Positions 34,910-55,253 of a DNA stretch of 64,000 bases are shown piece by piece; the first letter of the stretch is position 1, and each line of letters opens with the position of its first letter. A program made the position numbers and the translations under genes. The DNA is from a marine gamma proteobacterium HTCC2148. Lineage in GTDB: Bacteria; Pseudomonadota; Gammaproteobacteria; Pseudomonadales; Halieaceae. The stretch is taken from the NCBI GenBank assembly GCA_000156295.1, contig DS999227.1:14730-78729 (forward strand), written 5' to 3'. A model generated the notes under the pieces. The model searched no databases, had not been told where the DNA came from, and was given only the letters and a program-made list of their open reading frames with translations.

Positions 34910-34985
34910 AAGCACCGGAGGCGCCAGGGCTATAATCCATTGACGAGAATAAAAGGGCCGCCCAAGGCCTGCAACCGGAATCCGG

Positions 34986-35648: not shown

Positions 35649-35699
35649 TCCAAGCCAATACACAGGGCGTAGCAACAACAAAACCAGTTGGACAATAAT

Positions 35700-37025: not shown

Positions 37026-37820
37026 CTAGAGATCAGCGAACAAATCCCGTTTGTTGAAACCGGCGGTCATAAAGCGAGAGAACGCTTTGCCACCGGTTAA
37101 CCAGACTACCTTAGCGCCGCTTTTATCGGCGTTGAGAATCCCATCCACCAAATAAGGTGTCACCGTTGCGACCGTGTCACCAAGGATGTTAAATATCTTT
37201 TTGCTCTTCTCCCACTCCGGGGAGGATGTGTCGTAATCTCCAAGTAACAGATCAGTAATCACAATACCCGGACTGAGGGTACAAACTTGCACCTCAGTAC
37301 CCTTCACCTCTTTCTGCAGTGCTTTATTGACATAATTCACTGCTCGTTTGGTAGCACCATAGGCGCACATTCCGGGCTGCACCTGGTTACCGCTGCCAAA
37401 GCCTTCCATGTTCCAGATCTGTCCATTACCCTGGGAAAACATACCCGCCAACGCTACTCGATTGGCCAGTAACAGGCCCGTTAAATTAACGCCAACAATG
37501 GCTTCCAGATCTGCAGAGCTTGTTTCTGCCAGATTTTTCCGGGGAATACTCATACCCGCGTTATTGACCCAGACGTCGATCTGGCCAAATTTAGCCACCC
37601 CCATGTCCCAGAGGTTTTGCAGTTGACCGGCATCAGTGATCTCGCAAGCAACGCCCAACAGCTTGTCAGCGCCGCCAGCGACAGACAACTGCGTTACTAC
37701 CTCATCAACACTTTCCTGCTTCCTGCCCGACACCACGACGTTGCAGCCACGCTGCAAAAACTGTTGAGCAAGCCCCCTGCCGATCCCCCGGGTACTGCCA
37801 GTAACAACCACTGTTTTCAT
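37026..37820 (-). CDS. Short-chain dehydrogenase/reductase, copy B
   Basis: 264 residues with VTGSTRGIGRGLAQQF, VNNAGMS and YGATKRAVNYV (Tyr/Lys pair). It resembles SDR copy A at 10510-11307 across its length, so nitrilase, SDR and MFS each occur as a pair in the two blocks. It is NAD(P)-dependent oxidation or reduction of a keto or hydroxy group. It is divergent from the gene at 37910, with an 89-base promoter gap that contains ATGATCCTGCTCAA at 37870-37883, a weak Fnr-like match. Confidence 0.88.
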   Translation of the reverse strand: MKTVVVTGSTRGIGRGLAQQFLQRGCNVVVSGRKQESVDEVVTQLSVAGGADKLLGVACEITDAGQLQNLWDMGVAKFGQIDVWVNNAGMSIPRKNLAETSSADLEAIVGVNLTGLLLANRVALAGMFSQGNGQIWNMEGFGSGNQVQPGMCAYGATKRAVNYVNKALQKEVKGTEVQVCTLSPGIVITDLLLGDYDTSSPEWEKSKKIFNILGDTVATVTPYLVDGILNADKSGAKVVWLTGGKAFSRFMTAGFNKRDLFADL

Positions 37821-37909: not shown

Positions 37910-38530
37910 ATGAGCACCCCCTTTCCGGTTTTCCCCGTCGGTTCGGTTGGCCACAACTTGATGCTGCTGCGCGGCACCTGGCACGATCATATCGAACTCT
38001 ATAACCTTGATGGCACACCACTGGAAGATGACTCTTGCGCCGGCAGCGGCTCGCCAGGACCCGGTCCTTTCGACAACCTGGTGTACATCGACTTTGATGG
38101 TCACAAACTCTCTCTTACCAACGTGCACATTCGCGGCCGCGAACCGGCAGCAAAAACGTTCACCGGAAAAATCCGGGGCGACCTCCTTGTCTTTGACCCC
38201 CTTGGACCCGGTGCCTATGAAAACGTCGGCATGTCAGGGGGGCCTGGCATTTTAACCTTCAATGCCCGCAAGCTTGATGCCGCCAGCGAAGTTTACATGG
38301 AGCCCGACTTCATTATGCTCACTGCACCCGGAGAGCGAGTGCGCCACACGGTGCTTTATCGACACGGAGAAGCCGTGCGTACACTCACCGCTAAAGGCAC
38401 TCGACTTTGGCCGACTTGCGACCAACGACATCCCCTGGACCCTAGGGGCAGTGACGGCCTGGTTCATGAACCCCCCTTTTCTTCGTCAATCTGGGCGCAC
38501 CTCGCAGACAAGGCCAATGTAGAGGAATGA
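37910..38530 (+). CDS. Predicted beta-barrel (lipocalin-like) protein of unknown function
   Basis: 206 residues with no signal peptide and no membrane helix. The sequence alternates polar and hydrophobic residues and has a motif near the start, LMLLRGTWHDHIELYN, that recalls the GxW of lipocalin-type barrels. Later strands include VYIDFDGHKLSLTNVHIRG and LLVFDPLGP. A small-ligand carrier or ligand-modifying barrel is a possible role. Bilin lyases and heme-binding barrels share this fold, which would suit a tetrapyrrole context, but sequence identity to those families was not seen. It lies directly upstream of the RCCR gene on the same strand. Confidence 0.65.
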   Translation: MSTPFPVFPVGSVGHNLMLLRGTWHDHIELYNLDGTPLEDDSCAGSGSPGPGPFDNLVYIDFDGHKLSLTNVHIRGREPAAKTFTGKIRGDLLVFDPLGPGAYENVGMSGGPGILTFNARKLDAASEVYMEPDFIMLTAPGERVRHTVLYRHGEAVRTLTAKGTRLWPTCDQRHPLDPRGSDGLVHEPPFSSSIWAHLADKANVEE

Positions 38531-38543: not shown

Positions 38544-38557
38544 TTGATTTTAGTCAA
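38544..38557. promoter_or_regulatory. Fnr-like site upstream of the RCCR-like gene
   Basis: TTGATTTTAGTCAA matches the Fnr consensus TTGAT-N4-ATCAA at all but one defined position. It is centred about 82 bases upstream of the ATG at 38633, close to positions typical of class II or class I activation. The local Crp/Fnr gene at 41891 is the natural candidate regulator. Confidence 0.55.
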
Positions 38558-38632
38558 GCGGCAGTGTTTGGCTGTAACCTATGATGCGATCAACAATTTT
38601 AATAGTGCCGCCCAGGCCACTTGGACGAATTT

Positions 38633-39454
38633 ATGAGCGAACGCATTCTCACCCCCATCATTGATCTGGTGGAGGCTAGTCCCGACGTCGATAACCGAGA
38701 GGTCTTCAACCATCTCTGGGAAATACTGGGCGAGATGAATGAGCGCATCCAATCTCGATTCGAGCTTACCAGGGACCCCTGCAGTGAGCGCTTCGATGAT
38801 TACAGCAATCTCGGTGGCACAGGAACAGGGGCAGAGGGCTCCCTGAAAGCCTACTCCGGTCCAGAGATAGACTGGTATGTGCACTCCTATATCGGCTCTC
38901 CGGAATCCAGTTTCACCAATATGCACATCACCATTAGCTTGGGTCCCCAGTACCTGGTGCCTAATTTTGGATTCGCCCTGGGCACGGTTCCAGATTTATT
39001 TATGTACATGGACTACATTCCTCGCGTCGAACTCATGGCCAACGCCCAGTACACGGACAAGTATTACGCCGAGGTCAACGATGAGTTTCTCGACCTGCAG
39101 GAAGACGATCGCTTTAATCCCTTCATCAGCCGTGATCTCTATACTCGAGTGGCCATGACGCCGACTGCAGTAGGCTACACAGCCAAAGCCGAGGAAGATG
39201 TGCTCCATAAGGTCAAGGGGATTGCCCTGTCTCGACTGGATCGGTGGTTAAAATGGGTCGACGAGGCAGTCCCAACTCCCGCTGCCGAACGAGCTGCCAT
39301 CGCGGCCAGAGATGAATTGATTCGCAAAACCATCTGCCAAAGAGACCCTGCCAACAACCTGGGGGACAAACTGTTTGGCAAAGAAGCAGCCGAGGCCATG
39401 GTCGCTACCCTGTGGGGCGGCAGCCGCACCCTACCAAGGCCGATGGGAGACTAA
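38633..39454 (+). CDS. Red chlorophyll catabolite reductase (RCCR)-like protein, copy 2
   Basis: 273 residues from the ATG at 38633. The pattern follows plant RCCR: VHSYIGSPESSFTNMHIT, then LVPNFGFALG (plant PNF-V-E-L), DLFMYMDYIPRVELMANAQY then TDKYY (plant DLPHRKDL, NPDYL, YY), FISRDLYTRVAMTPTA, and a C-terminal RKTICQRDPANN...LFGKEA matching RRKSI-DD...MFGEE. Plant RCCR reduces red chlorophyll catabolite with ferredoxin after the Rieske oxygenase PAO opens the ring. The catalytic Glu position (Glu154 in Arabidopsis) is Ala here. It may reduce a tetrapyrrole-type product. A Rieske fragment and a chlorophyllase-like hydrolase follow within 1 kb. Confidence 0.82.
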   Translation: MSERILTPIIDLVEASPDVDNREVFNHLWEILGEMNERIQSRFELTRDPCSERFDDYSNLGGTGTGAEGSLKAYSGPEIDWYVHSYIGSPESSFTNMHITISLGPQYLVPNFGFALGTVPDLFMYMDYIPRVELMANAQYTDKYYAEVNDEFLDLQEDDRFNPFISRDLYTRVAMTPTAVGYTAKAEEDVLHKVKGIALSRLDRWLKWVDEAVPTPAAERAAIAARDELIRKTICQRDPANNLGDKLFGKEAAEAMVATLWGGSRTLPRPMGD

Positions 39455-39486
39455 CCGGTCGCATCATAAGAATCCTCAGATCGCGG

Positions 39487-39630
39487 TTAGGAACTGCCTC
39501 TGCAATCGTTCAGCCTTGTTCGTTCTTCGTCAAGAAACAGAACAGAGCGTTGGCCCAGCATGTTGACCCGCACGGGGTCCTTATCCAGCTTTGCCGCCCA
39601 CTCAGCTACATACCAAATATTAATGAGCAA
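39487..39630 (-). pseudogene. Remnant of a Rieske oxygenase N terminus
   Basis: A 47-codon frame from a TTG at 39630, with AAGGAT seven bases upstream, encodes MLINIWYVAEWAAKLDKDPV and then a further 15 similar residues. It closely follows the first 35 residues of the Rieske protein at 47148-48314 (MLVNLWYVAEWANKVKDQPV). After that the similarity ends and a stop follows. The rest of the gene, including the iron-sulfur Cys/His pairs, is missing. This is the truncated start of a second, lost copy that faced the RCCR gene. It occupies much of the otherwise gene-free stretch 39455-39778. Confidence 0.75.
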
Positions 39631-39701
39631 CCACGTTATCCTTTAACACTACAGCGATGACTATTGATACCGTATTATTCTGAGAATGCAGCCTCAGGTT
39701 G

Positions 39702-39715
39702 GTGATATAAATCAA
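39702..39715. promoter_or_regulatory. Fnr-like site upstream of the chlorophyllase-like gene
   Basis: GTGATATAAATCAA differs from the TTGAT-N4-ATCAA consensus at one defined base. It is centred about 70 bases upstream of the ATG at 39779. The remainder of the 324-base gap holds the Rieske remnant and AT-rich sequence. Confidence 0.55.
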
Positions 39716-39778
39716 ATTTTTCTGAGCCATTGATGGCAGCATTGTTCAACCTTCAGCAGTTAATGGAACAAAGCCATT

Positions 39779-40762
39779 ATGATACCTAGAGCCATTTATC
39801 GGGCCACCTCACTCCCCGGGGCAAAACCACCCTATGACAGGGTTTCTTTAAAAATTTTCTACCCGGCAAACTATGGCGACAGCGAGGAAGAGCGTAACGC
39901 GGGCGTCGTGCCCGCAGATACGTCTGGGGCACCCTTCCCAGTCGTTATCATACTGCCCGGTATCAACCTGGGTCCTGAAGCCTATACCTGGCTAGCGAGA
40001 GAACTTGCCTGCGCGGGTATCGCCAGCGTCACCTACACACTGGTTGCAGAAGAAATGCCTGGGTATATCAGTCAAACTCCAGGACTTGACCTAACAGCCC
40101 TAAGCAGCGACGAATATGGTCGGCACCCTTCAGCGACCGCTATAGGTCCGATCCTGGAGGAGTTACACAAGCTCAACAAGGAAGGCCTGCTAGCGGGTGC
40201 CCTGGATATGAACAGCGTCATTCTGGCAGGCCATTCCGCGGGGGGCACAGTTGCTTTGCTCAACGCACAACCACAGTGGTTCGCGGGTGTTTGCGGCGCA
40301 CTGGCCTATGGCGCTCACACCGGAGCGGCAACTGCACTGGGGTATCCGGAGGACTCGATGTTTACGTTACCCAACCAGCTGCCGCTGCTGGTTATGGGCG
40401 GTACTCGGGACGGTTGCATTGCCAACAGCAGTGCTCGCTATGGTGAAGCAAACGGCTCCCCCACCGCCCGGGTGGAGCGCACCTTCGACGAGGCACTGGA
40501 TAGCAATCGCGGCGATTGCTATTTGGCAATAATAGAAGGCGCCAACCATTTCTCATTCGCTCATCCGCTGGATGACAGCACAGGCCGACCATTCATTGAT
40601 ATGACGACCACTGAGCCAGACGAGGAACTGCGGAGTATGCTTGCAAGCCTGGTCAAAAATTTCACTCTGGCTGTGGCTCGAAACCATCCAGAGTCTCGAG
40701 ATCAACTCAATGCTTTGTTGCTTGGAGAAAACCCGCTGATAAAACGGGGAGCGAGACGTTGA
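39779..40762 (+). CDS. Chlorophyllase/dienelactone hydrolase-like alpha/beta hydrolase
   Basis: 327 residues with no signal peptide. The fold motifs are VVIILPGINLGPEAYTWLA (oxyanion region), a nucleophile elbow GHSAGGTVALL with Ser153, an acidic residue in GGTRDGC and a late His in EGANHFSFAHP. The arrangement of a long loop (LDLTALSSDEYGRHPSAT) between the first strand block and the nucleophile is like plant chlorophyllase, which removes phytol from chlorophyll, and like bacterial dienelactone-type hydrolases. Ester cleavage is the safe statement; the substrate is inferred from context. It has its own Fnr-like site. Confidence 0.75.
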   Translation: MIPRAIYRATSLPGAKPPYDRVSLKIFYPANYGDSEEERNAGVVPADTSGAPFPVVIILPGINLGPEAYTWLARELACAGIASVTYTLVAEEMPGYISQTPGLDLTALSSDEYGRHPSATAIGPILEELHKLNKEGLLAGALDMNSVILAGHSAGGTVALLNAQPQWFAGVCGALAYGAHTGAATALGYPEDSMFTLPNQLPLLVMGGTRDGCIANSSARYGEANGSPTARVERTFDEALDSNRGDCYLAIIEGANHFSFAHPLDDSTGRPFIDMTTTEPDEELRSMLASLVKNFTLAVARNHPESRDQLNALLLGENPLIKRGARR

Positions 40763-40772
40763 AGGCCTCGAT

Positions 40773-40786
40773 TTGACAAAAAGCAA
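40773..40786. promoter_or_regulatory. Fnr-like site upstream of the second barrel protein
   Basis: TTGACAAAAAGCAA differs from the Fnr consensus at two defined bases. It is centred about 78 bases upstream of the ATG at 40858. It fits the spacing of the other sites but is the weakest of the set by symmetry. Confidence 0.42.
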
Positions 40787-40857
40787 GGCTGTCCCCACGC
40801 TTTTAGCCACAATAGGCCGCTGCCGCACCAATAACAGACATTTTCAAGGAATTATGC

Positions 40858-41826
40858 ATGTCAGACCAGCAACCCAGTAACTGGCAACAGGCAATCAATG
40901 GCGAATGGCATGGTTGCCCATCCCTGTTTGAACACGATGGCACCCACGTGGGCACCAATAAAGTCAGCCGAGCAAGCGAATTCAAAGATGGTCGCACCAC
41001 CTACTGGATGGATACCTGCTTTGATGCGACCGGCCCGCTTATGGATCGCTTTGAAATTGGCGCTCGAATGGAATTTGGCGTCATTGACTCAGACCAGGAC
41101 CGAATATACACCGGGCCAGATTTTGTTGGCTCTGGCAGACCTTTCGGCTTACTCGTAGACTCAAACTATTACTCGCCAGGCTGGAACGTCAACCTGCGCA
41201 CAGTGAACCATGTTGTGCCCGAACTCGGCATGCAGGTCTACAGCTCGCAGCTCTTTGAAGCCGACACTCTGGTAGGCGTTTTCAATGGACTTTATGTCGT
41301 CACCCAGGACCACGAAAGTAATCCGGAGACCCAGAAAATGGTCGCCGAGTGGCTGGCTAAAGAAAAACAAGAGGGCAAAAAACCCTACAACCTACCAGTC
41401 AAGCACGAAGGTGTTTTTCGAGGGGAATTCGAGGTTTATGATGCGAATCAGCAGCGCGTAGGAATCAATACGGTGACTGTTACGCACAGGCCGATCAACC
41501 TACTGCACTCCGAGCAAACCATCGAGATTGAAGGCGTTATCAATCGCAAGTGGACATCCATGCGAACTCGCAATGGCAATAGCCACCAGTACCATGGGCC
41601 CGATATGTTCGGCAACGGCAAATCTTATGGCCGCTACCTCTATTCCGTTCGCCATGTGTTCGGTGAGGCCCTCAAAATGTGGTCCCGCGAGGCAGTGGTG
41701 GACGATAACGGCACTCAAGTGTGCGTATGGCAGTTTCTTGAATCCCAGAAAGAACAATACACCACATTTGGCGTGCTTCGCTTTGAGGCGGGTGAAAACG
41801 TGCTGGCGCCAACTTACGTTGAGTAG
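40858..41826 (+). CDS. Predicted beta-barrel (lipocalin/DUF3598-like) protein
   Basis: 322 residues, soluble, with AAGGA eight bases upstream of the ATG. The opening SNWQQAINGEWHGCPSLFEH has the GxW barrel signature, and a second similar unit begins near residue 180 (HEGVFRGEFEVYDANQQRVG), so the protein may be a double barrel. A family resembling DUF3598 is suspected but not certain. It could bind or modify an amphiphilic ligand. It lies between the chlorophyllase-like hydrolase and the Crp/Fnr gene. Confidence 0.65.
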   Translation: MSDQQPSNWQQAINGEWHGCPSLFEHDGTHVGTNKVSRASEFKDGRTTYWMDTCFDATGPLMDRFEIGARMEFGVIDSDQDRIYTGPDFVGSGRPFGLLVDSNYYSPGWNVNLRTVNHVVPELGMQVYSSQLFEADTLVGVFNGLYVVTQDHESNPETQKMVAEWLAKEKQEGKKPYNLPVKHEGVFRGEFEVYDANQQRVGINTVTVTHRPINLLHSEQTIEIEGVINRKWTSMRTRNGNSHQYHGPDMFGNGKSYGRYLYSVRHVFGEALKMWSREAVVDDNGTQVCVWQFLESQKEQYTTFGVLRFEAGENVLAPTYVE

Positions 41827-41890
41827 CCATTAGCTCAGTACGGGGGTGGCCATCACCGTCCCGACTCTTTAACATGAGGGCTTACTTCTA

Positions 41891-42574
41891 TTGGTATGCC
41901 CCTTGAACCCTGAACATAAGCAACCACTGACCATTTACTCTGGCCTCTGCCCGAGTGACATGCAGCGGCTGGATGCTATGGTGATCTATCGCAACCTGGA
42001 CTCAGGGGACTACCTGTTTCACCAGCACACCCCCGCCCGCTCTGTCTATGTACTGGAAGAAGGGATCATGATGATGGAGCGATCGTCATCCACGGGGCGA
42101 CGCCAGGTCATGGCGTTTATGCAACCTGGAAATTTTATCGGTATTCCACACAATCAGCACTACGACTACACGGTATCAGCCCTGCAAACCTCTCGCGTCC
42201 AGGAAATGGCGTTAAAACCCTTCGTCGAGTTACAGGACGACATCAGCCAACTGAAAGAAAATGTTAGAGGGATTGGTGGCAATATTCTGGCGCATACCCT
42301 GGACCAGGTGTTTGCACTGGGACAGAAGAAAGCCCACGAACGGGTCTGCTTTCTGCTCAAGCAGCTGTCCGACCGCGCTCTGGTGCCGGGTTCAAGAAGT
42401 ATCGAATTAGTGATGACCCGTCAGGACATCGCTGACTACCTCGGGCTCACCATTGAGACTGTGAGCCGGGCCTTCGGCAAGCTCAAACGCGAGAAAGTTA
42501 TCGACATCTTCTCTGCACATACCGTGGAAATAATCGACATGGAAGCCGTCGAAGAGATGGCTCTCGCTGACTAA
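41891..42574 (+). CDS. Crp/Fnr-family transcriptional regulator
   Basis: About 227 residues. A cNMP-binding-like beta-roll (residues 25-115) is followed by a dimerisation helix (LDQVFALGQKKAHERVCFLL) and a winged helix with TRQDIADYLGLTIETVSRAF. The recognition helix has the Fnr-type ExxSR, which reads TTGAT half-sites. Only two cysteines occur near the N terminus, so the four-cysteine cluster of true Fnr is missing. A ligand or redox signal other than the classical iron-sulfur switch is likely. The start is a TTG at 41891 or 41903 without a strong ribosome site. It convergently overlaps the GST end by 4 bases. Confidence 0.88.
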   Translation: MVCPLNPEHKQPLTIYSGLCPSDMQRLDAMVIYRNLDSGDYLFHQHTPARSVYVLEEGIMMMERSSSTGRRQVMAFMQPGNFIGIPHNQHYDYTVSALQTSRVQEMALKPFVELQDDISQLKENVRGIGGNILAHTLDQVFALGQKKAHERVCFLLKQLSDRALVPGSRSIELVMTRQDIADYLGLTIETVSRAFGKLKREKVIDIFSAHTVEIIDMEAVEEMALAD

Positions 42575-43215
42575 GAGCCAAACAATTTAGCCACGGCATC
42601 GCACATTTCGCTGGAACTTCCCGCCACAGCAGGATCCTCTTTGGCCCAGTTAAACCATCCTTCGCTCATTGGGTATTTTGACAGTGGCGCAGGTTCGCCA
42701 AAAAGCGGCCCCAGCAGAAGAACAAAGTCCATATGTGGCACCAGCGCCATATCACCAAGATGAATCGCCCGTTCGCGAAAGTCCGGCAACACAGTCAATA
42801 TCCGCTCTAGACGCGCCAACTCTGCATGCAGGGCTGCCAACTCTTCCTCTGCCGAATGCGCACCGCCACCCTGGCCGACCAGCTTAAACAGCCCAAACAG
42901 GCCGCCCGGAGAAAGGTAAGTATCTGCGTAACGGGCGAACATCTGCATTTGAGCGCGTTCGAGTGGATTTTCTGGGCTATTGCTACCACCGCAGGCAGTC
43001 TCGTTCAGGTACTCCATAATGACCCACGAGTCAGGCAACTGTGAGCCGTCAGCCAATTCCAACACGGGAATTTTCCCCATGGGGAAATGGTCTACAAACT
43101 CGGGCGTACGCAGGGCCTCCTCTGGATGACAAATCTCAATATCCAATGCCGCTTTAGCAATTAAAGTGCGAACACGGGTAGCGTACGGTGAGTGGGCAAG
43201 ACTGTAGAGTTTCAT
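42571..43215 (-). CDS. Glutathione S-transferase family protein
   Basis: 214 residues. The thioredoxin-fold N-terminal domain starts KLYSLAHSPYATRVRTLIA and carries the cis-Pro motif GKIPVLELADG followed by DSWVIMEYL. An all-helical C-terminal domain follows. The Ser at SPYATR could be the catalytic residue that activates glutathione. A role in conjugation or isomerisation (maleylacetate- or maleylpyruvate-type) is possible, given the maleate-like chemistry in the window, but is not shown. It is divergent from the lyase gene at 43297. Confidence 0.85.
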   Translation of the reverse strand: MKLYSLAHSPYATRVRTLIAKAALDIEICHPEEALRTPEFVDHFPMGKIPVLELADGSQLPDSWVIMEYLNETACGGSNSPENPLERAQMQMFARYADTYLSPGGLFGLFKLVGQGGGAHSAEEELAALHAELARLERILTVLPDFRERAIHLGDMALVPHMDFVLLLGPLFGEPAPLSKYPMSEGWFNWAKEDPAVAGSSSEMCDAVAKLFGS

Positions 43216-43296
43216 TAATGGTCCTTAAACAGTGACTTCAGCAACTCGCAGGATAGAATGAATCCAAAGAATAAAAAACCGCACAACGGGGTATAA

Positions 43297-44166
43297 ATGA
43301 TTGAAAGCCTGAAACAACGTCTTACAAGGCCGTCAATAGTGCAGGCGCCCGGGGTTTACGACGGCCTTTCTGCACTGTTAGTCGAGCAAGCGGGATTTGA
43401 AGCTGCCTTCCTGTCCGGGGCCTGCCTTTCATTTGCTCGTTTTGGACGGCCCGACATGGGGCTGGTGACCGCTGCCGAAGTGTCTGAGACCGTTGCCGTT
43501 ATCCGCGACCGGATCAGCCTGCCGCTGATTGTCGATATAGACACTGGCTTTGGCAACGCCCTCAACGTTCAACGCACAGTCAGGGACTTTGAACGTGCGG
43601 GCGCCAGCGCCCTGCAACTGGAAGACCAGCAAGCACCTAAACGCTGTGGCCATATGTCAGGAAAGTCTGTCATCAGCTCACAGGAAATGGTTGGCAAAAT
43701 TAAAGCTGCGCTAGACAGTCGGCACTCAGACGAAACCCTGCTTTTCGCCCGAACTGACGCCCTGGGAGTTAACGGCTTTGATGATGCTATGGAACGGGCA
43801 CAACGCTACCTGGAGGCGGGCGCAGACGCATTGTTCATAGAAGCCCCGCAGAATCGCGAGCAAATGGAAAAAATCTCAGCTCAGTTCGCAGCAGAGGCCC
43901 CATTGATTCACAACCTCGTAGAAGGCGGCGATACCCCGATTGAAAAGCCCGCCGAACTCGAAGCGCTGGGCTATCGGATTGCATTGTATCCGGCCGCGCT
44001 GCTTCACCAGTTCACGCCTCAGGCCCAGCGCCTGCTTACACACATCCGTAAAGAAGGGGATACCCGCAAATATCGCAACGAAATGTATAGCTTGTCAGAC
44101 ATGAACAGAGTGCTGGGCGCAGATGCTCTGTTAAAGGATGGCCAACATTACGACGCCAAGAGCTGA
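43297..44166 (+). CDS. Isocitrate lyase/PEP mutase-family C-C lyase
   Basis: 289 residues of the ICL/PEP mutase barrel family. The catalytic loop reads KRCGHMSGK with Cys117, and the metal ligands lie in IVDIDTGFG (Asp82) and LQLEDQ (Glu109, Asp110). The Cys loop places it with the lyases (methylisocitrate lyase, 2,3-dimethylmalate lyase, oxaloacetate hydrolase group) rather than the mutases. A 2,3-dimethylmalate-lyase-like reaction would give pyruvate plus a short acid. With a LeuCD hydratase also in the window, this pairs as in nicotinate fermentation. It heads a rightward operon with two hydrolases. Confidence 0.86.
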   Translation: MIESLKQRLTRPSIVQAPGVYDGLSALLVEQAGFEAAFLSGACLSFARFGRPDMGLVTAAEVSETVAVIRDRISLPLIVDIDTGFGNALNVQRTVRDFERAGASALQLEDQQAPKRCGHMSGKSVISSQEMVGKIKAALDSRHSDETLLFARTDALGVNGFDDAMERAQRYLEAGADALFIEAPQNREQMEKISAQFAAEAPLIHNLVEGGDTPIEKPAELEALGYRIALYPAALLHQFTPQAQRLLTHIRKEGDTRKYRNEMYSLSDMNRVLGADALLKDGQHYDAKS

Positions 44167-44169
44167 ATC

Positions 44170-45123
44170 GTGAGGACTGCGCTGCGACTATTAACGCGTG
44201 TCTTGAGCGCCATACTGCTCTTAACCCTCGTCGGTATCAGTTGGCTTTGGTGGGCTAATCGCGACATTCCTGTGGAGACTCTCGAGCTTCGTTATGGCGG
44301 CGATAATTTACAGCAGCTAAATATCGACGGCGTCCAGTTACGCTACAAAGTCGAGGGAACAGGCCCGCCGCTGGTATTGATTCACTCTCACTTTTACAAC
44401 ATGCGCCAGTGGCAACCCTGGGTAGACAAACTCTCAGAAAAATTCACCCTGATACGCTATGACCTTACCAGTCATGGATTAACAGGCCCCGACCCCAGCG
44501 AAGACTACTCCCGTCAGCGCGGAACAGACCTTCTGGATGCGCTTCTACAGCACCTCGAAGTCGATCGTGCCGCTATTGTCGGCTCGTCCACTGGCGGCGC
44601 GTTGGCGTGGTACTACGCAGCAAGATTTCCAGACAAGGTATCGCATCTGGTGCTAATCAATGCGCCGGGAATGCCCAGGGTCACCAACAAGTATATGGAA
44701 ACTCCCCTACCTGACTGGTTCGGATATGTACTTTACCTGCTGCCCGAATCATTATTTCGGCCATTTCTACAAGCACCGGTGGTCGATAACACCCTCATCA
44801 CTGCCAAACTACTGGAAGAATTTCACAGGATGTATCGCCGCCAGGGAAATCGCATGGCAGAATTCCATCGACTCCGGGCCTGGGAACGCGGTGATATCAC
44901 CACTACGCTGGAAAGGATTACCGCACCGGTGCTGATTCTGTGGGGTGAGGAGAACCCACAACTACCTGTAGAACATGCCGAGCAATATGCACAGGCCCTG
45001 AAAAATGCTGATCGCATAAAAATTCATATTTATCCCGAAATAGGCCATGTCATTCCCCTGGAAGCGCCGGCCCGATCCGCCGCCGATACCGCTGTTTTTA
45101 TCGAAGGGAGCTATCTTGAATAA
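44170..45123 (+). CDS. Membrane-anchored alpha/beta hydrolase
   Basis: 317 residues from a GTG at 44170, three bases after the lyase stop. One membrane helix (residues 9-29) anchors an external catalytic domain. The nucleophile elbow is VGSSTGGALAW, the oxyanion region LIHSHFYNMRQW, the acid is near LWGEENPQLP and the His is in EIGHVIPLEAP. It hydrolyses an ester, thioester or C-C bond at the periplasmic face of the membrane. It is in one operon with the lyase and the lipoprotein hydrolase. Confidence 0.84.
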   Translation: MRTALRLLTRVLSAILLLTLVGISWLWWANRDIPVETLELRYGGDNLQQLNIDGVQLRYKVEGTGPPLVLIHSHFYNMRQWQPWVDKLSEKFTLIRYDLTSHGLTGPDPSEDYSRQRGTDLLDALLQHLEVDRAAIVGSSTGGALAWYYAARFPDKVSHLVLINAPGMPRVTNKYMETPLPDWFGYVLYLLPESLFRPFLQAPVVDNTLITAKLLEEFHRMYRRQGNRMAEFHRLRAWERGDITTTLERITAPVLILWGEENPQLPVEHAEQYAQALKNADRIKIHIYPEIGHVIPLEAPARSAADTAVFIEGSYLE

Positions 45124-46126
45124 GTACCTGTTAACGTTGTTATGTTTGTTGGTAACAGCTTGCGGCCCAGACCCGGAGCTACCTGCCGCGCAACCACTGA
45201 CCGTCGCACCGGAGGTTATTAATGACGTGCACGGCGCAGTGCCCGGCCCCTACTCAGTGATCGCCCATAAAGTGCTTAGCATTGAGGGTGAGGATGGGGC
45301 AGCATTGGCGACAAGTCTCTACTACCCGGCTGAAGATTCACAACACCCGCTGCTACTGTTCTCTCACGGCAATTGGTCTGATCGACTCAGCTACGACCGC
45401 CTGATTGAACATTGGGTCAGCCACGGTTATGTGGTGCTTGCGGCAAATCACTCAGATTGCTGCAGCCCGGTAAAAGGTATTTTTAATAGCCTTCGCTTCG
45501 GGCAGTTAGGGTTGATCAACCGACGAGTGAGGGATCTGGAACTGCTGCTGGCGAACGTGACAACATTGGAGGGCCAAATTCCCGCATTCGCCGGCAAAGC
45601 AGATGTGTCGAAAGTGGCCGCTACAGGCCACTCATTCGGAGCGTTCAGCGCGCAGCAACTCGGTGGCGCCAGTGCCCTCAACCCCGATAACGATGAATAT
45701 CAGTACCATCCAAACCCCCGGGTGTCGGCCGTTGTGGCTCTGAACCCACCCGGCCCCATGTTCGACACCATTACTGCCGACAGTTGGCGCGGAATGACAG
45801 CACCTACGCTTATCAGCACCGGCACCTGGGATGTTCAAAAAGGATTTTGGGAAGACTGGAAAATGCACTTAATGTCCTGGGAAAACAGCCCAGCCGGCAA
45901 TAAGTACGCTCTGGTTGTGAACGGTGCTGATCACTACCTGGGGAACCTGATATGTCGCACCGAACGTGAGCATCCGCCACAGGAGGACGCGCTGAAAATG
46001 GTGCAACTGACCACCACGGCCTTTCTCGACACAATACTCAAAAACGACAAAGGCGCAGGTTTAATTTTTGCGGACAACTACCTGGCGGAAAAGACACAGG
46101 GTTATGCCAAAATTTTACGCCGTTAA
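45116..46126 (+). CDS. Lipoprotein alpha/beta hydrolase (dienelactone hydrolase/PAF-acetylhydrolase-like)
   Basis: About 336 residues from a TTG at 45116 with GAAGGGAG five bases upstream, overlapping the previous gene by 8 bases. The N terminus is a lipoprotein signal with the lipobox LVTAC, so it is likely membrane-attached. Motifs are LFSHGNWSDRLSY, ANHSDCC, the elbow TGHSFGAF and a late His in NGADHY. It resembles predicted dienelactone hydrolases and chlorophyllase-type enzymes. Hydrolysis of an extracellular ester is the likely role; three hydrolases of this fold in 6 kb suggest an ester-rich substrate. Confidence 0.83.
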   Translation: MNKYLLTLLCLLVTACGPDPELPAAQPLTVAPEVINDVHGAVPGPYSVIAHKVLSIEGEDGAALATSLYYPAEDSQHPLLLFSHGNWSDRLSYDRLIEHWVSHGYVVLAANHSDCCSPVKGIFNSLRFGQLGLINRRVRDLELLLANVTTLEGQIPAFAGKADVSKVAATGHSFGAFSAQQLGGASALNPDNDEYQYHPNPRVSAVVALNPPGPMFDTITADSWRGMTAPTLISTGTWDVQKGFWEDWKMHLMSWENSPAGNKYALVVNGADHYLGNLICRTEREHPPQEDALKMVQLTTTAFLDTILKNDKGAGLIFADNYLAEKTQGYAKILRR

Positions 46127-46183
46127 CTTTCACCCTCGAGATGGCGATAGCTGTCATTGGACGTCTGCCAGAGGCACCGCCCC

Positions 46184-47146
46184 TTGACGATTTCGTCTCA
46201 CTTGTGGGGCATTCTGGGATGCCTGCTGGTCATGGCGTTTATCGTCGCCGTCGGTCCCTACAGCCACCCGGGCATGTTTCTTGAAGACCAGGGTTTCAGT
46301 TGGTACTACTGGAAACTCCCGTCGCCGGATTTCTGGACTCGGTTCAGTGCATGGGGACTTTACGGGTTACACCAGCTAGGGCTTTGGGGCCTGATCGCCT
46401 GGGCTCAGCATCAGCGTCTTCAATATGCCAAGACCCTGCACCCCGTAAATCTGCTCGCACTGGCATTCAATCTGTTGTTTGTCATGCTGCATATACTTCA
46501 AACCCGCGTTTTCTATGATGGGCTCGCCCAGGATACCTCGGTATTTTCATCCCAATTTTCGGTCATCTTCATGTTGGTGTTTGTGCTGATTATGGAGAAC
46601 CGGCGCCGAGGACTGTTGTTCGGCTATCGTGCGGGCTTCATGGAACCTGCCGGGGGTTTCCTGCGCCGATATCACGGCTACTACTTCAGCTGGGCCATAA
46701 TTTACACATTCTGGTTCCATCCCATAGAAGACAACGTCGGCCACTTACTGGGCACCTTTTATATTTTATTGCTGTTGTTACAGGGCAGCCTGTTTCTTAC
46801 ACGATTTCATCGAGACCGTGCCTGGACGATGCTGCTCGAGGTGTTCGTACTGTTTCACGGTGCGATGGTGGCTTGGCTTTCCTTCCAGAACGACCACTGG
46901 CAAATGTTTGCCTTCGGCTTTTTAACCTTGTTCATTGTGACTCAAATGCACGGCATCGGGCTGGGCAGGCGTTCAAAAATACTACTAATCGCCCTATACA
47001 CACTGGCGGTGTTGGTCAATTACTGGGGCAGGGAGTGGGAAGTGCTGGAGGTGCTGCGCATACCCTCTGCTGAATTGGGATTGGCTGTGCTGATTGGCTT
47101 AGCGAGCTGGCTGGCCCTGCGATTACGCAAGGCCAGACAGGCATAA
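46184..47146 (+). CDS. Polytopic membrane protein of unknown function
   Basis: About 320 residues with eight to nine membrane helices, several carrying histidines (VMLHILQTR, WFHPIEDNVGHLLG, HRDRAWTML, VLFHGAMVAW, TQMHGIG). Histidine-bearing helices could ligate heme or metal. The start is uncertain: a TTG at 46184 has AGAGG nine bases upstream, and another TTG at 46157 extends it. No family was recognised. It follows the lipoprotein hydrolase and is convergent with the Rieske oxygenase, so it may provide electrons to or transport for that enzyme, but this is only positional. Confidence 0.68.
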   Translation: MTISSHLWGILGCLLVMAFIVAVGPYSHPGMFLEDQGFSWYYWKLPSPDFWTRFSAWGLYGLHQLGLWGLIAWAQHQRLQYAKTLHPVNLLALAFNLLFVMLHILQTRVFYDGLAQDTSVFSSQFSVIFMLVFVLIMENRRRGLLFGYRAGFMEPAGGFLRRYHGYYFSWAIIYTFWFHPIEDNVGHLLGTFYILLLLLQGSLFLTRFHRDRAWTMLLEVFVLFHGAMVAWLSFQNDHWQMFAFGFLTLFIVTQMHGIGLGRRSKILLIALYTLAVLVNYWGREWEVLEVLRIPSAELGLAVLIGLASWLALRLRKARQA

Positions 47147-47147
47147 A

Positions 47148-48314
47148 TCAGGCGGTACGGTCGTCATTATCAACCACATTGAGAGGATTACTCGTAGGGG
47201 CAACCAGCGGCACAGAATCCAGCGCCCACCTCAACTCTGGATTAGTGCGCCGTGCGGGCGATGGGATCGTAAAAACCTTCTCCCCTGCAAACGGCAGCAT
47301 GGCCTTTGAATCGATCTTCCAGCCTTTTTCTTCCACATGAGTCTTACGAACTTTCCGCCATGCACCCATAAACTTATCCTGCTCCACAGACACCTCATTC
47401 TCGAGGCTCTCTGGCAGATAATGCGGCGATATGGCCTCGACAATATTAGCGTCCTCCTGAAACACTTTCAGAGTACGCTTGACGGAGCCCGCATCGAACA
47501 TGCCCCACTTGAAGAAATTCCTCACTTGCACCACAAATGATCGGGTGGTGTGTTCGTCAATGGGCGTATTGGCATCAAATATAATCATCTCCATCCAGGA
47601 ATTCACCTGAATGTGCAAACGCACTGTATGGCCCGACAGATAAAAGCCCGGGTGAACATGAGTCTCCGCTTTATCCCTGCGCGCAAACTTCATCAATCCT
47701 AAATTACCTTCCATTGGTGGCGGGTAAAGCACGCAAGAGGATGAACCAGAGTGTTCGTCGCGTTGGATTTTGACGATATGGTTCTTGTCTGCCATTTCCT
47801 TGTAGCCGAAGCCAGGGTGAACAAAAGAGGTGTGCGCAATGTCTATACCATTTTCGACCACCCGACTTACGTCCGCATCCCAGGTAAATTCCGTATAAAT
47901 CGGCCTCCAGTTCTCCCTATCATCATACTCAGGGAATGGTGGAATCGGATATCGCCGAGACTCCTCGAGGTCGCCCATGAACACCCAAATCATGCCGTAC
48001 CGTTCTTCCGTGGGATAAGCGTCAATGCGGGCTCGTTCCGGAACATCCGCACCCTCTCCCCGTGAGGGTATGAACTGTACTTTACCGTCCGGGTCGAATT
48101 CCCATCCATGGTAAGGGCAGGCGACGCAATCGCGTTCCGTTGTCCACCCACCGGACAAGGATCCTCCTCGATGGATACAGATGTCGGATAAACAATGAAC
48201 TTCGCCTTTGCTATCGCGAAACAACACGAAGTTTTGCCCCAACAGCTTTGCTTTTACCGGTTGATCCTTAACCTTGTTTGCCCATTCGGCCACATACCAG
48301 AGGTTTACCAGCAT
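47148..48314 (-). CDS. Rieske non-heme iron oxygenase, alpha-subunit type
   Basis: 388 residues. The Rieske 2Fe-2S site has Cys46 and His48 (ICIHRGGS) and Cys66 and His69 (ACPYHGWEF). The mononuclear iron site has Asn155, Asp158, His161 and His166 (ENGIDIAHTSFVHPG). This is the single-component layout shared by vanillate demethylase, phenoxybenzoate-type oxygenases and plant pheophorbide a oxygenase (PAO). The C-terminal CxxC of PAO was not seen. The reductase partner is not in the window. A TTGAT-N5-GTCAA sequence lies at 48367-48381 in its upstream gap. A decayed N-terminal copy is at 39487-39630. Confidence 0.9.
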   Translation of the reverse strand: MLVNLWYVAEWANKVKDQPVKAKLLGQNFVLFRDSKGEVHCLSDICIHRGGSLSGGWTTERDCVACPYHGWEFDPDGKVQFIPSRGEGADVPERARIDAYPTEERYGMIWVFMGDLEESRRYPIPPFPEYDDRENWRPIYTEFTWDADVSRVVENGIDIAHTSFVHPGFGYKEMADKNHIVKIQRDEHSGSSSCVLYPPPMEGNLGLMKFARRDKAETHVHPGFYLSGHTVRLHIQVNSWMEMIIFDANTPIDEHTTRSFVVQVRNFFKWGMFDAGSVKRTLKVFQEDANIVEAISPHYLPESLENEVSVEQDKFMGAWRKVRKTHVEEKGWKIDSKAMLPFAGEKVFTIPSPARRTNPELRWALDSVPLVAPTSNPLNVVDNDDRTA

Positions 48315-49065: not shown

Positions 49066-49731
49066 ATGGAAATGTCTAGTAAAACCGCACGGCAAATCTA
49101 CCAGGATGTCATCAACAATCCTGCTCGCAAGAAATTTGGGTTCGGCAACAAAGCTGTATTGGTCAACATTGACCTGCAAAAGTCATATACCCGCACTGAC
49201 TTGTTCGCCACCGCTTATGAGACTGACCCTTTGCAACTTAAGTATGTGAACGAGCTAGCCAGTGAGTTCCGCCGATTGAATTGGCCGGTTGTATGGACAC
49301 AAGTCGCCTATATGAATTCCGGTGAAGACGCGGGCATCTGGGGCACCAGAACGGACACCCCCGATTCATTGCAAAACATCAAGTTCGGCTCCGAGCGCGG
49401 CGAGTTCGACGACCGCCTGACTATCCTGAAAGACCAGGACGTGATCTATCTGAAAAAAATGCCCTCTGCCTTCTTCGAAACTCAGTTGCAGTCTCTGCTG
49501 GTCTGGCATCAGGTGGATACAGTCATTTTGACCGGCGGTTCTACATCAGGGTGTATTCGCGCAACCGCGGTCGAGAGTCTGTCGCGCGGCTACAGGACGA
49601 TCGTGCCCGAGGAGTGCGTCGCGGATAAGCACGAGAGCTATCATTTCTCTAATCTCACTGATCTGTCTCTAAAATACGCTGACGTTCTCAAAGTAGCCGA
49701 GGTTAAGCACTGGCTGGGCCAGCAAAAATGA
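49066..49731 (+). CDS. Isochorismatase-family amidohydrolase, copy 2 (maleamate/ureide amidase-like)
   Basis: 221 residues with TGAGGAA five bases upstream of the ATG. The catalytic triad is Asp36 (VNIDLQKSYTRTD), Lys131 (LKKMPSAFFET) and Cys163 (STSGCIRATAV). An N-terminal extension of about 25 residues (ARQIYQDVINNPARKKFGFG) resembles those of N-carbamoylsarcosine amidase relatives. It overlaps the first imidase-like gene as ATGA. In the proposed scheme it would cleave a maleamate formed by the imidase-like enzymes to the diacid plus ammonia. Copy 1 is at 28129-28725. Confidence 0.86.
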   Translation: MEMSSKTARQIYQDVINNPARKKFGFGNKAVLVNIDLQKSYTRTDLFATAYETDPLQLKYVNELASEFRRLNWPVVWTQVAYMNSGEDAGIWGTRTDTPDSLQNIKFGSERGEFDDRLTILKDQDVIYLKKMPSAFFETQLQSLLVWHQVDTVILTGGSTSGCIRATAVESLSRGYRTIVPEECVADKHESYHFSNLTDLSLKYADVLKVAEVKHWLGQQK

Positions 49732-50669
49732 AGTCGGATCCGGGATTCTACGACTACTGGCCCTACGAAAAAAGGCCGAATATTCAATGGCCGGGGGGTG
49801 CCCGTCTAGCATTCTGGGTTGCGCCAAACATCGAGTTTTATGAACTGGACCCGCCAGCTAACCCACAAAGAAAAGCATGGCCGCAGCCTTATCCAGCATT
49901 GCCGGGGTACGGAATTCGTGACTATGGCAATCGGGTAGGCCACGTCAGACAAATGGAAGTGCTGGACCGGTATGGCATTCGCGGTTCCATATCCCTGTCT
50001 ACGGCCCTTTGCGACCACCATCCTGAAATCATTGCCCAATGTGCACAGCGCGACTGGGAGTTCTTTAGCCACGGCATCTACAACACGCGCTATACCTATG
50101 GCATGAGTGAAGAACAGGAAAAAGAAATGATCCTGGATTCGCTAAGCAGCATCAAAAAGCATACCGGTCAACATTGCGCTGGCTATCTCGCTCCCGCTTT
50201 GTCTCATTCGGAGAACACACTGGACTTGTTTGCAGAAGCAGGCTCTGAGCTGGCGGGCGACGAGGCGGGCTTTTACACCTGCGATCTTTTTCATGACGAC
50301 CAGCCCACTCCCATTCGATTACGCAGCGGTAAACGCTTCGTATCTATTCCATACTCACTGGAAATGAACGACACCATTGCCTACGTCGTCAATAAAGTCG
50401 AACCAAGACGTTATGGCCAAATGCTCAGAGACAACTTTGACAGGCTATATGCAGAGGGAGCCCAATCGGGCACAGTAATGTGCATCCCTACCCACAATTA
50501 CCAAGTTAGCTGTCCTCACCGATTGAAAGCGTTTGAAGAAGCGCTGGAATACATTACTGGCCACAGTGACGTATGGGTCACCACTGGCCGGGAAATTGCC
50601 AGCCACTTCCTGGACACCCAATACGATACGGCGCTTGCCAACATCGCTTCCAAACAGGGAGCTTGCTAA
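49728..50669 (+). CDS. Polysaccharide-deacetylase-fold hydrolase, allantoinase/cyclic-imidase-like, copy A
   Basis: 313 residues. The NodB-homology fold is shown by RLAFWVAPNIEFYELDPP, GIRDYGNRVGHVRQMEVLDR, SHGIYNTRYTYGMSEEQ, and GYLAPALSHSENTLDLFAEAG. The subgroup is that of metal-poor PuuE allantoinase and cyclic imide hydrolases, not chitin deacetylases. These enzymes open a cyclic amide or imide ring. The Glu in NIEFYE, conserved in the subgroup, is present. Its start overlaps the amidase gene by 4 bases, and a related gene follows at 50672, so the operon encodes amidase, imidase and imidase. Ring opening of a maleimide or a hydantoin-like ring is inferred. Confidence 0.83.
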   Translation: MKSDPGFYDYWPYEKRPNIQWPGGARLAFWVAPNIEFYELDPPANPQRKAWPQPYPALPGYGIRDYGNRVGHVRQMEVLDRYGIRGSISLSTALCDHHPEIIAQCAQRDWEFFSHGIYNTRYTYGMSEEQEKEMILDSLSSIKKHTGQHCAGYLAPALSHSENTLDLFAEAGSELAGDEAGFYTCDLFHDDQPTPIRLRSGKRFVSIPYSLEMNDTIAYVVNKVEPRRYGQMLRDNFDRLYAEGAQSGTVMCIPTHNYQVSCPHRLKAFEEALEYITGHSDVWVTTGREIASHFLDTQYDTALANIASKQGAC

Positions 50670-50671
50670 AT

Positions 50672-51601
50672 ATGGCCCTGGACCCCGAGCATCTGCAATA
50701 CCCGAATCGCACCTATGGTATGGACCACGATCGTTACGAATGGAGCATGCTTAGCGATCGTCGCCCGGTACAATGGCCCGGAAGCGCAAAGCTCGCCGTT
50801 TGGGTGAACGTAAGTTTGCAGTTCTACCCACTCAACCAAGAGGGCAAGCCCTTTGCCGTTCCTGGTGGCATGACCATGCCCTACCCTGATCTAAGGCATT
50901 ATTCCCTGCGCGACTATGGCAATCGAGTAGGCATTTATCGATTCCTGAATGCGTTCGATCAGTACGGAATCAGGCCAAGCTTCGCAATCAGCACTGAACT
51001 TGCAGAGCGCGCACCCTATCTACTGCAGCGTATTTGTGAGCGCGAAGATGAGCTCATCTGTCATGGGTGGAATATGGATAGCCTGCACTACGGCGGCCAG
51101 CCACTTGCGGAAGAGTCTGAACTGGTGGAGCGCTCCATCACTCGCCTGCGGGAGCTCAGTGGTCAGGAGATTAGCGGCTGGATTAGCCCCGCGCGCAATG
51201 AAAGTGAAAACACACCCGAATTGCTGGTTCAGAATGGAATTCGCTATTTCTGCGATTGGGTCAACGATGACATGCCCTACTCATTTCACACCAAGTCCGG
51301 CGACCTGACCGCAATGCCGCTGTCAAACGAATTGGAGGACCGTTTTGTACTAATGAACAATTTGCATTCAGAACAGTCATGGCTGGAGCAAGTGTGTGAT
51401 GCATGCGATTTCCTGCTACAGGAAGCGGAATCCAGCGGCGGGCGAATCCTTGCCCTTAATATCCATCCCTGGGTGCTCGGGCAGCCTCATCGCATTGCCA
51501 GGCTGGAGCAGGCACTGGCATACATCAGTTCATGCGCCGGCGTGTGGAACGCTCCTGCCGGTGAAATATTGCAACACTGGATGGCCCAGCAGGGAGGGTA
51601 G
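50672..51601 (+). CDS. Polysaccharide-deacetylase-fold hydrolase, allantoinase/cyclic-imidase-like, copy B
   Basis: 309 residues from the ATG at 50672, 2 bases after the previous stop. It is paralogous to copy A: KLAVWVNVSLQFYPLN, SLRDYGNRVGIYRFLNAFDQ, CHGWNMDSLHYGGQ, SGWISPARNESENTPELL. The Glu of copy A (NIEFYE) is Gln here (VSLQFYP), and other polar positions differ. Thus copy B may have another substrate or serve as a partner subunit. Both precede the GntR regulator by 3 bases or fewer, so it belongs to the same message. Confidence 0.83.
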   Translation: MALDPEHLQYPNRTYGMDHDRYEWSMLSDRRPVQWPGSAKLAVWVNVSLQFYPLNQEGKPFAVPGGMTMPYPDLRHYSLRDYGNRVGIYRFLNAFDQYGIRPSFAISTELAERAPYLLQRICEREDELICHGWNMDSLHYGGQPLAEESELVERSITRLRELSGQEISGWISPARNESENTPELLVQNGIRYFCDWVNDDMPYSFHTKSGDLTAMPLSNELEDRFVLMNNLHSEQSWLEQVCDACDFLLQEAESSGGRILALNIHPWVLGQPHRIARLEQALAYISSCAGVWNAPAGEILQHWMAQQGG

Positions 51602-55250: not shown

Positions 55251-55253
55251 CGC

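Follow-up and report, generated by a model that had tools for sequence, protein, structure and literature searches.

We analyzed a stretch of 64 000 nt from the marine gamma proteobacterium HTCC2148 (contig C26:14730-78729 of a 4.33-Mb genome; called the window below, with positions counted from its first letter), which carries a gene related to red chlorophyll catabolite reductase (RCCR) within a large group of catabolic-type genes. An initial annotation had marked the interval 38544-48314 as a possible cluster for the breakdown of chlorophyll or another tetrapyrrole. We found that these borders are too narrow, as the linked genes cover about 24-57 kb of the window, and that the gene set forms a conserved, co-inherited unit. 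The following genes and remnants are central to the analysis:

26051-26884, minus strand: AMD1, maleate isomerase/arylmalonate decarboxylase superfamily (nearest structure 2xed)
32281-33045, minus strand: u254, bilin-reductase superfamily (hhalign, AlphaFold2 (AF2) and Foldseek)
33138-34940, minus strand: CNhyd-R, nitrilase superfamily (CN hydrolase; PF00795, 2e-39)
37026-37820, minus strand: short-chain dehydrogenase/reductase (SDR; PF00106)
37910-38530, plus strand: barrel206, conserved protein
38633-39454, plus strand: RCCR1, RCCR-like protein of the bilin-reductase superfamily (PF06405, 3agb)
39523-39630, minus strand: remnant of a further Rieske gene, covering roughly its first 35 codons (match to locus L065)
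39779-40762, plus strand: abH327, alpha/beta hydrolase with a GHSAGG motif
40858-41826, plus strand: barrel322, double-lipocalin DUF3598/BFA1-like protein (AF2)
45047-46126, plus strand: chlorophyllase-like hydrolase (PF07224)
47148-48314, minus strand: Rieske non-haem iron oxygenase with a VanA-type C-terminal domain (PF00355, VanA_C)

For comparison with other genomes we scanned genome contigs with an RCCR alignment, which gave 88 confirmed places, and used the best 80 of them for counting. A gene was counted at a locus if tblastn found it at E<=1e-5, covering 30% of the query or more, in the flanks of up to 10 kb on each side of RCCR; some of the 80 loci span less than 10 kb on each side. 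By our own grouping, taken from record titles, the loci belong to Gammaproteobacteria (23), Nocardia (23), Micromonosporaceae (7), Nonomuraea (3), Nocardioides (1), Acidimicrobiia or other Actinomycetota (14), Chloroflexi (2), cyanobacteria (6) and a deltaproteobacterial metagenome-assembled genome (MAG) shown as Myxococcota (1). Near RCCR, barrel322 and the Rieske oxygenase were observed at 71 loci each, abH327 at 67, the SDR at 61, u254 at 58, the CN hydrolase at 50 and AMD1 at 41, followed by the aldehyde dehydrogenases ALDH-L (35) and ALDH-LL (32), an acyl-CoA dehydrogenase-like protein (ACAD; 31) and an FAD monooxygenase (31). The core beside RCCR, not always complete, consists of the first seven of these genes and recurs in Gammaproteobacteria, Actinomycetota, Chloroflexi and one Myxococcota MAG; in actinomycetes the cluster genes are mostly co-directional. 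RCCR, Rieske, abH327 and barrel322 all lie within 10 kb at 56 of the 63 full-length non-cyanobacterial loci. In the 60 kb control DNA away from RCCR (L056, L060, L061) none of the core genes was found, the only match being one to an ALDH. Other control stretches were discounted, as they either adjoin RCCR copies of genome G068 (L045, L050) or had been fetched by the PaO and RCCR searches (L142-L145, L018, L020).

Whole genomes gave a similar picture. The RCCR model PF06405 was found in 9 of 341 genomes of the order and in none of 14 control genomes; from this distribution and from the conservation of the gene set across phyla we conclude that the setting of RCCR is not a matter of chance. Profiles of u254 and barrel322, searched at E<=1e-10 over 341 genomes of the order drawn as for RCCR, picked exactly the same nine genomes, and among the six genomes of the window's genus, counting the one analyzed here, three carry RCCR, u254 and barrel322 and three carry none of them. 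The Rieske profile at E<=1e-60 found 11 of the 341 genomes, namely all nine with RCCR, G280 and G290. In the Nocardia family RCCR, u254 and barrel322 each occur, adjacent to one another, in the same 2 of 91 genomes, of which one (G350) was the search centre and had been chosen for having RCCR. Among 29 hand-picked genomes AMD1 is present in 18 of 18 with RCCR and in 0 of 11 without it. The initial annotation had itself named a lack of co-conservation in relatives as the result that would speak against a cluster; for RCCR, the Rieske oxygenase, one barrel and the SDR, co-conservation is what we observed.

The open reading frame (ORF) of RCCR1 spans 38621-39454 on the plus strand, and its relatives point to the ATG at 38633 as the start. 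The protein belongs to the Red chlorophyll catabolite reductase family, as the initial annotation had it: it matches PF06405 at E=1.1e-15 (58 bits, curated cut-off 24.9) and the solved Arabidopsis RCCR structure 3agb at E=6.3e-9, and is nearer to RCCR than to the bilin reductases (Fe_bilin_red, 0.0068). In G158 and G134 a paralogue, RCCR2, with about 33% identity to RCCR1 is located between a further SDR gene (SDR-L) and a gene of the major facilitator superfamily (MFS). At 10510-12571 of the window SDR-L stands directly beside the MFS gene with no RCCR2 between them, and since the window's genome has only one PF06405 match, RCCR2 seems to have been lost.

A second protein of the superfamily is u254, which finds no match in Pfam or NCBIfam. 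Compared by hhalign, the u254 and RCCR alignments match with a probability of 97.9 and E 4.5e-13. The five best matches of the u254 profile in the PDB, phytochromobilin synthase (HY2, 0.006), three RCCR entries (0.012-0.015) and PebA (0.13), are each weak singly and all belong to one superfamily. The AF2 model (pLDDT 94.6) matches RCCR in Foldseek at 1.7e-10 and superposes on PebB, PebA, HY2 and RCCR with Z 22.2-22.7 at 2.9 A over 226-235 residues (22.7 for PebB and 22.2 for RCCR, over 231-235 residues); PcyA, with a best Z of 21.8, PebS and the coproporphyrinogen oxidases rank lower than this group. Fold and profile agree, and u254 belongs to the bilin-reductase superfamily. In a joint alignment Asp168, Arg172, Trp254 and one Asp of 290/291 are kept in both groups (plant numbering, taken from the structure of the F218V mutant), with Arg172 in 25 of 27 u254 rows and Trp254 in 28 of 29 RCCR rows; the Asp at 290/291 is kept in all 29 bacterial RCCR rows, in a register uncertain by one column. 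Glu154 and Asp291 are acidic residues with a role in plant RCCR. At the position of Glu154 all 27 u254 rows have Asp and the RCCR1 group mostly has Ala; therefore the two proteins probably catalyse different reductions, and RCCR1 need not perform the reaction of the plant enzyme, the reduction of RCC to pFCC with ferredoxin.

A rival reading is a pathway of the same kind whose substrates are linear tetrapyrroles such as biliverdin and bilirubin from haem, or phycobilins from phycobiliproteins; the Rieske oxygenase would then cleave the bilin to dipyrroles instead of opening a chlorin. PebB, PebA, HY2, RCCR and PcyA differ by no more than about 1 Z in the comparison with u254, the Asp of all u254 rows replaces the Glu154 of plant RCCR, and the Rieske oxygenase is without a PaO domain; Staygreen was not found, in a search with a silent control, and haem, too, yields maleimides and hematinic acid according to PMC7318184. 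We nevertheless consider this version unlikely: RCCR1 is closer to RCCR than to Fe_bilin_red, the SDR resembles NYC1/NOL (a lead only, see below), and no haem oxygenase model turned up in Pfam scans of 59 window proteins, all of at least 120 aa.

The Rieske oxygenase was recognized correctly by the initial annotation (PF00355, 9.8e-22; VanA_C, 7.8e-21), whose further description of it as single-component is putative, and has conserved CxH/CxxH and DxxHxxxxH motifs; its nearest solved structures are SxtDIOX, SxtT and NdmA, followed by NdmB and dicamba demethylase. The broken start of a second Rieske gene, also described before, is a fragment of about 35 aa (39630-39523) with 69% identity (E=4e-10) to the intact second Rieske protein of L065. 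In L063-L065 this second gene is intact between RCCR and abH327, the place that the remnant occupies here. G158 has a second Rieske copy far from its cluster. The PaO domain (PF08417) was not found in the window's genome at E<=0.001. Over 30 hand-picked genomes, 6 match it at this threshold, 3 of them above the cut-off (a Nostoc genome, G221 and G134); the match in G134 (C7:532882) is far from its RCCR (C7:80242). The genome of the Nostoc locus L094 has 5 PaO matches over the cut-off.

The two hydrolases of the original interval differ in their distribution. The profile of the widespread abH327 is nearest to polyethylene terephthalate (PET) hydrolases and cutinases (best 1.4e-12). A chlorophyllase-like hydrolase does lie where it had been described, with a match to PF07224 at E=4.8e-8 that covers only positions 28-130 of 301; its nearest solved relatives are PETase-, esterase- and cutinase-type hydrolases, and neither a full-length PF07224 match nor a conserved position in the pathway, as expected of a chlorophyllase, was found. 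Two small-ligand beta barrels had been predicted as well. The AF2 model of barrel322 (pLDDT 95.6) contains two barrels and matches BFA1 with Z 19.7 over 263 residues and the DUF3598 structure 2o62 with Z 19.2 over 249 residues, and its halves are similar to haem-binding nitrobindin (Z about 12-13) and to CpeS, a phycobiliprotein lyase (Z 10.6). The second candidate, barrel206, is located just outside the interval; it occurs at 15 of the 80 loci (14 in Gammaproteobacteria and one in the deltaproteobacterial MAG) and has no relative in Pfam or NCBIfam. By sequence neither barrel protein has a useful relative in the PDB, and the idea that they form one family was rejected at an hhalign probability of 0.6 of 100. 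In G174 (C2:2336870-2338447) barrel322 is broken into three fragments next to an RCCR match that has an internal stop, probably a decaying copy.

The nearest PDB entries of the cluster SDR are generic SDRs (88 bits). With a plant NOL sequence that does not come from a database record as the query, the cluster SDRs and the RCCR2-linked paralogues reach 95-159 bits, other SDRs of these loci at most 61 bits and one cluster fragment (L089) 52 bits; the 81 best of 100 entries, gene duplicates included, are with few exceptions a cluster SDR or an RCCR2-linked paralogue, as judged from their labels or positions. We take the likeness to the plant NYC1/NOL chlorophyll b reductase as a lead only.

Around these genes the window contains a second set of catabolic-type genes, together with transporters and regulators:

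4478-5968, plus strand: ALDH-LL, aldehyde dehydrogenase outside the main run (PF00171)
21294-23951, minus strand: TonB-dependent receptor, candidate importer (relatives near the cluster)
24015-24791, minus strand: AMD2, paralogue of AMD1 (PF17645; 6 of 80 loci)
26909-28125, minus strand: FAD monooxygenase (FAD_binding_3)
28129-28725, minus strand: isochorismatase-family amidohydrolase (PF00857, 1.3e-35; 3 of 80 loci)
28729-29541, minus strand: alpha/beta hydrolase (4 of 80 loci)
29538-30977, minus strand: ALDH-L, aldehyde dehydrogenase (PF00171)
30991-32262, minus strand: ACAD, acyl-CoA dehydrogenase-like protein
35688-37019, plus strand: MFS transporter (15 of 80 loci)
41891-42574, plus strand: Crp/Fnr regulator (PF00325, PF13545; 8 of 80 loci)
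43297-44166, plus strand: PrpB-like lyase of the phosphoenolpyruvate mutase/isocitrate lyase family, below the equivalog cut-off (14 of 80 loci)
49066-49731, plus strand: isochorismatase-family amidohydrolase (PF00857; 3 of 80 loci; beside PDA1 in G106, G095 and G269)
49728-50669, plus strand: PDA1, PuuE-allantoinase-like, proposed cyclic imide hydrolase (3cl6)
50657-51601, plus strand: PDA2, paralogue of PDA1
51605-52387, plus strand: GntR/UTRA regulator (6 of 80 loci)
52390-53334, minus strand: HMG-CoA-lyase-like aldol lyase (start set by the length of its relatives; the ORF runs to 53712)
53444-54628, plus strand: family III CoA transferase (PF02515)
54630-56651, minus strand: LeuCD-type hydro-lyase, small and large subunits

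The Crp/Fnr regulator agrees with what had been annotated. The nearest solved structure of AMD1 is the maleate isomerase 2xed (6.7e-10), and that of PDA1 is the PuuE allantoinase 3cl6 (8.3e-24), with 109.5 bits for TIGR03212 against a cut-off of 424.6; none of the AMD, isochorismatase and PDA proteins reaches an NCBIfam equivalog cut-off. PDA1 orthologues were observed in 11 of 11 Gammaproteobacteria with RCCR, including G158, where the gene is distant from RCCR, and have 79-86% identity outside the window's genome. Relatives of the last three entries of the list also stand beside RCCR elsewhere: the aldol lyase (37%), the CoA transferase (33%) and the large hydro-lyase subunit (48%) in L075 of the Nevskiaceae; the lyase (36%), the transferase (49%) and both hydro-lyase subunits (31-37%) in L082 of the Chloroflexi; and both subunits (62-67%) in L066. 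The FAD monooxygenase gene is frameshifted near 27322-27352 and is one open frame in relatives, which points either to genuine decay or to an assembly error. The TonB receptor has an FAD_binding_2 flavoprotein (19464-21167) on one side and AMD2 on the other. In G106 a 79% relative stands next to AMD2, and relatives of 45-62% lie near the cluster in G134, G229 and G269; among the 80 loci only weak matches (24-28%) were found, in 4 of them. The window has two CN-hydrolase proteins, at 8609-10306 and at 33138-34940 on the minus strand, of 565 and 600 aa and with two CN_hydrolase stretches each. At 6453-7493 on the plus strand it encodes a DUF169 protein with a C-terminal PCP_red domain of the protochlorophyllide-reductase type, a 63% relative of which is located near the RCCR2 cluster of G068.

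The succession of FAD monooxygenase, isochorismatase, alpha/beta hydrolase and maleate isomerase resembles that of nicotinate (nic) degradation, and raises the question of whether the genes serve to degrade an unrelated aromatic or heterocyclic compound that contains nitrogen, for which two proteins of the bilin-reductase fold would have been recruited to a new reaction. A Rieske oxygenase nearest to N- and O-demethylases, the missing Glu154 and the occurrence of the fold in a Ycf2-FtsHi subunit would fit this. It would require, however, that both bilin-reductase-superfamily proteins of one cluster were repurposed, and among the u254 matches listed at Z>=11 all except the FtsHi subunit are bilin reductases, RCCR or coproporphyrinogen oxidases, enzymes that act on tetrapyrroles. 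We therefore regard an unrelated substrate as improbable. The nicotinate and cyclic imide hydrolase-half-amidase routes share FAD_binding_3, alpha/beta hydrolase, isochorismatase-type, maleate isomerase and PuuE-like proteins with the window, whereas the present cluster is coupled to RCCR, u254, a Rieske oxygenase and a LeuCD-type hydro-lyase.

Taken together, we give slightly better than even chances to the reading that the cluster encodes a bacterial pathway dedicated to the catabolism of a ring-opened tetrapyrrole, in all likelihood one derived from chlorophyll rather than another source (pheophorbide- or phyllobilin-like). That the substrate is a tetrapyrrole of some kind is quite probable, and for its origin the balance tips somewhat towards chlorophyll. 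The proposal of a tetrapyrrole catabolic cluster is strengthened by u254, as a second protein of the bilin-reductase fold, and by the conserved unit. A part of it had to be given up, since the chlorophyllase-like gene stands outside the conserved set. The order of reactions that we suggest is speculative, and substrate and chemistry are inferred. The TonB receptor and the MFS protein would import the pigment, abH327 could strip ester groups, and the Rieske oxygenase might open the macrocycle or cleave it further. RCCR1 and u254 would reduce different methine or vinyl bonds with ferredoxin supplied from elsewhere in the genome, barrel322 may bind the pigment or pass it on, and the SDR and the aldehyde dehydrogenases may handle formyl or keto groups. 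Lactam or imide mono-pyrroles would then result from the action of the FAD monooxygenase and the nitrilase-like hydrolases. In Gammaproteobacteria, PuuE-like hydrolases would open substituted maleimides, isochorismatase-type amidases release ammonia, AMD1/AMD2 and the LeuCD-type hydro-lyase convert the substituted maleates, and the CoA transferase with the HMG-CoA-lyase-like (or the PrpB-like) lyase split substituted malates to central metabolites. The putative roles of the single enzymes in this arm are drawn from family chemistry, in part from that of cyclic imide hydrolases and dimethylmalate lyase. A route from imide via half-amide, substituted maleate and malate to an aldol cleavage is what would be expected for maleimides and hematinic acid. 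PMC7318184 cites these compounds as breakdown products of chlorophyll and haem; in the study itself hematinic acid was detected in leaves and maleimides were not.

A number of observations weigh against this reading. The fold of u254 is shared by a subunit of the Ycf2/Orf2971-FtsHi complex (Z 19.6 and 19.1), which is not known as a pigment enzyme, so that the fold alone is no proof of a pigment substrate. In RCCR itself 25 of the 29 bacterial rows have Ala where the plant enzyme has Glu154. Plant RCCR forms a long branch with no firm place in the tree, and placing it among the bacterial sequences was given up. The Rieske oxygenase is out as a member of the PAO family, being of the VanA/NdmA/SxtT type with no PaO domain at E<=0.01. 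A close Rieske orthologue occurs in G280, a genome of the window's genus without RCCR (C1:2085413-2086537), possibly in a distinct use of this oxygenase, and a weaker one in G290. The chlorophyllase-like gene, present at 1 of the 80 loci, was rejected as a core step. The C-terminal half of barrel322 also matches outer-membrane barrels (Pla, Z 13.9), and for this reason its half-barrel matches are unspecific. At 7 of the 63 full-length loci (L062, L066, L068, L070, L071, L113, L115) at least one of the four commonest genes is missing within 10 kb; the six cyanobacterial loci, L115 of Actinoplanes and the RCCR copies of G068 (at 3565301) and G269 (at 592885) are without the core. Within 10 kb of RCCR u254 was found at only 8 of the 23 gammaproteobacterial loci, yet it is present in all nine genomes of the order that have RCCR. 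For the maleate arm, AMD1 was observed within 10 kb in 0 of 14 Acidimicrobiia and other Actinomycetota MAGs (G347 has one elsewhere); PDA1 occurs in 1 of 11 relatives without RCCR (G221), and no orthologue was found in seven non-gammaproteobacterial genomes with RCCR, two of which have a 38% relative. The idea that the window encodes its own ferredoxin or oxygenase reductase was dropped: none of the 59 scanned proteins, all of 120 aa or more, has such a domain, and when the six frames were searched for motifs of small ferredoxins, three [2Fe-2S]-like frames turned up, all unconvincing, and none that is 4Fe-4S-like. Finally, Staygreen (PF12638) was found in 0 of the 30 genomes, but from this search no conclusion can be drawn because the positive control was equally silent.

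The initial annotation had seen in the gene order a mirror of the plant pathway. With an oxygenase outside the PaO type, a Glu154 position that is mostly Ala, and abH327 as the conserved hydrolase, this parallel holds only in part: the 'plant order' is an analogy without step-by-step homology, and the substrate remains putative. With the plant PAO/phyllobilin pathway (NYC1/NOL, SGR, pheophytinase, PAO, RCCR) the cluster has in common a homologue of RCCR, a Rieske oxygenase, a hydrolase of the esterase type and, as a lead only, an SDR resembling NYC1/NOL. It differs in the type of the Rieske oxygenase, in the absence of a Staygreen match (with the silent control), in an RCCR mostly without Glu154 and in a second protein of the bilin-reductase fold. 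Plants store phyllobilins, whereas the downstream genes of the cluster would suggest full mineralization.

Instead of catabolism, the genes might serve to make or tailor a bilin-like chromophore or a secondary metabolite. In favour of this, the cluster has a sporadic distribution that includes actinomycetes, a group known for secondary metabolism, and pre-PcyA bilin reductases of bacteria work in clusters that also encode bilin-binding globins (PMC10151467). The nitrilase-like hydrolases, aldehyde dehydrogenases, ACAD, maleate isomerases, imide hydrolases, LeuCD-type hydro-lyase, CoA transferases and lyase suggest degradation instead, and we hold a biosynthetic role to be very unlikely. The ferredoxin-dependent bilin reductases and pre-PcyA clusters belong to the same superfamily and, according to the same source, also occur in heterotrophic bacteria; they carry globins (BBAG), V4R and Fe-S proteins, while the present cluster carries a Rieske oxygenase, hydrolases, an SDR and maleate/imide enzymes.

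Parts of this picture have precedents. In Rockwell et al. 2023 (PMC10151467) RCCR appears only as an outgroup, in which sequences of Ca. Schekmanbacteria are placed; RCCR-related sequences outside cyanobacteria were therefore not wholly unknown before. Thomas et al. 2009 (PMC2716323) described RCCR homologues in Nostoc and Anabaena, known only from plant-symbiotic cyanobacteria, and judged acquisition from the plant host more likely. The tandem pair of Nostoc described there was met again in L094, L095 and L098 (Nostoc, Desmonostoc), where two RCCR genes, some 2 kb from each other, stand without the other cluster genes. In contrast to that picture, the family here spans heterotrophic phyla and is part of a putative catabolic cluster, and our findings thus question the view of bacterial RCCR as limited to plant-symbiotic cyanobacteria. 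Staygreen homologues have been described in non-photosynthetic bacteria (PMC8531759, 2021). In the open-licence literature we found no report of a cluster such as this one and no paper on bacterial genes that dismantle the tetrapyrrole skeleton to central metabolites.

The novelty lies at the level of the pathway, as the enzymes are new members of known superfamilies. The cluster puts forward some twenty candidate genes, in part from named cultured strains, and a sequence of reactions that can be tested, and it suggests a role for the unannotated families u254, barrel322 and barrel206. Beyond the single genome, we see a little less than even chances that heterotrophs of several phyla share an aerobic mineralization of ring-opened tetrapyrroles, leading from chlorophyll or its catabolites via substituted maleimides and maleates to central metabolites, and that RCCR may be an old bacterial catabolic enzyme and the source of the plant one. 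The yearly production and destruction of chlorophyll is on the order of 10^12 kg (PMC7318184), and a shared mineralization of tetrapyrroles, if true, would be a missing microbial step in its global turnover.

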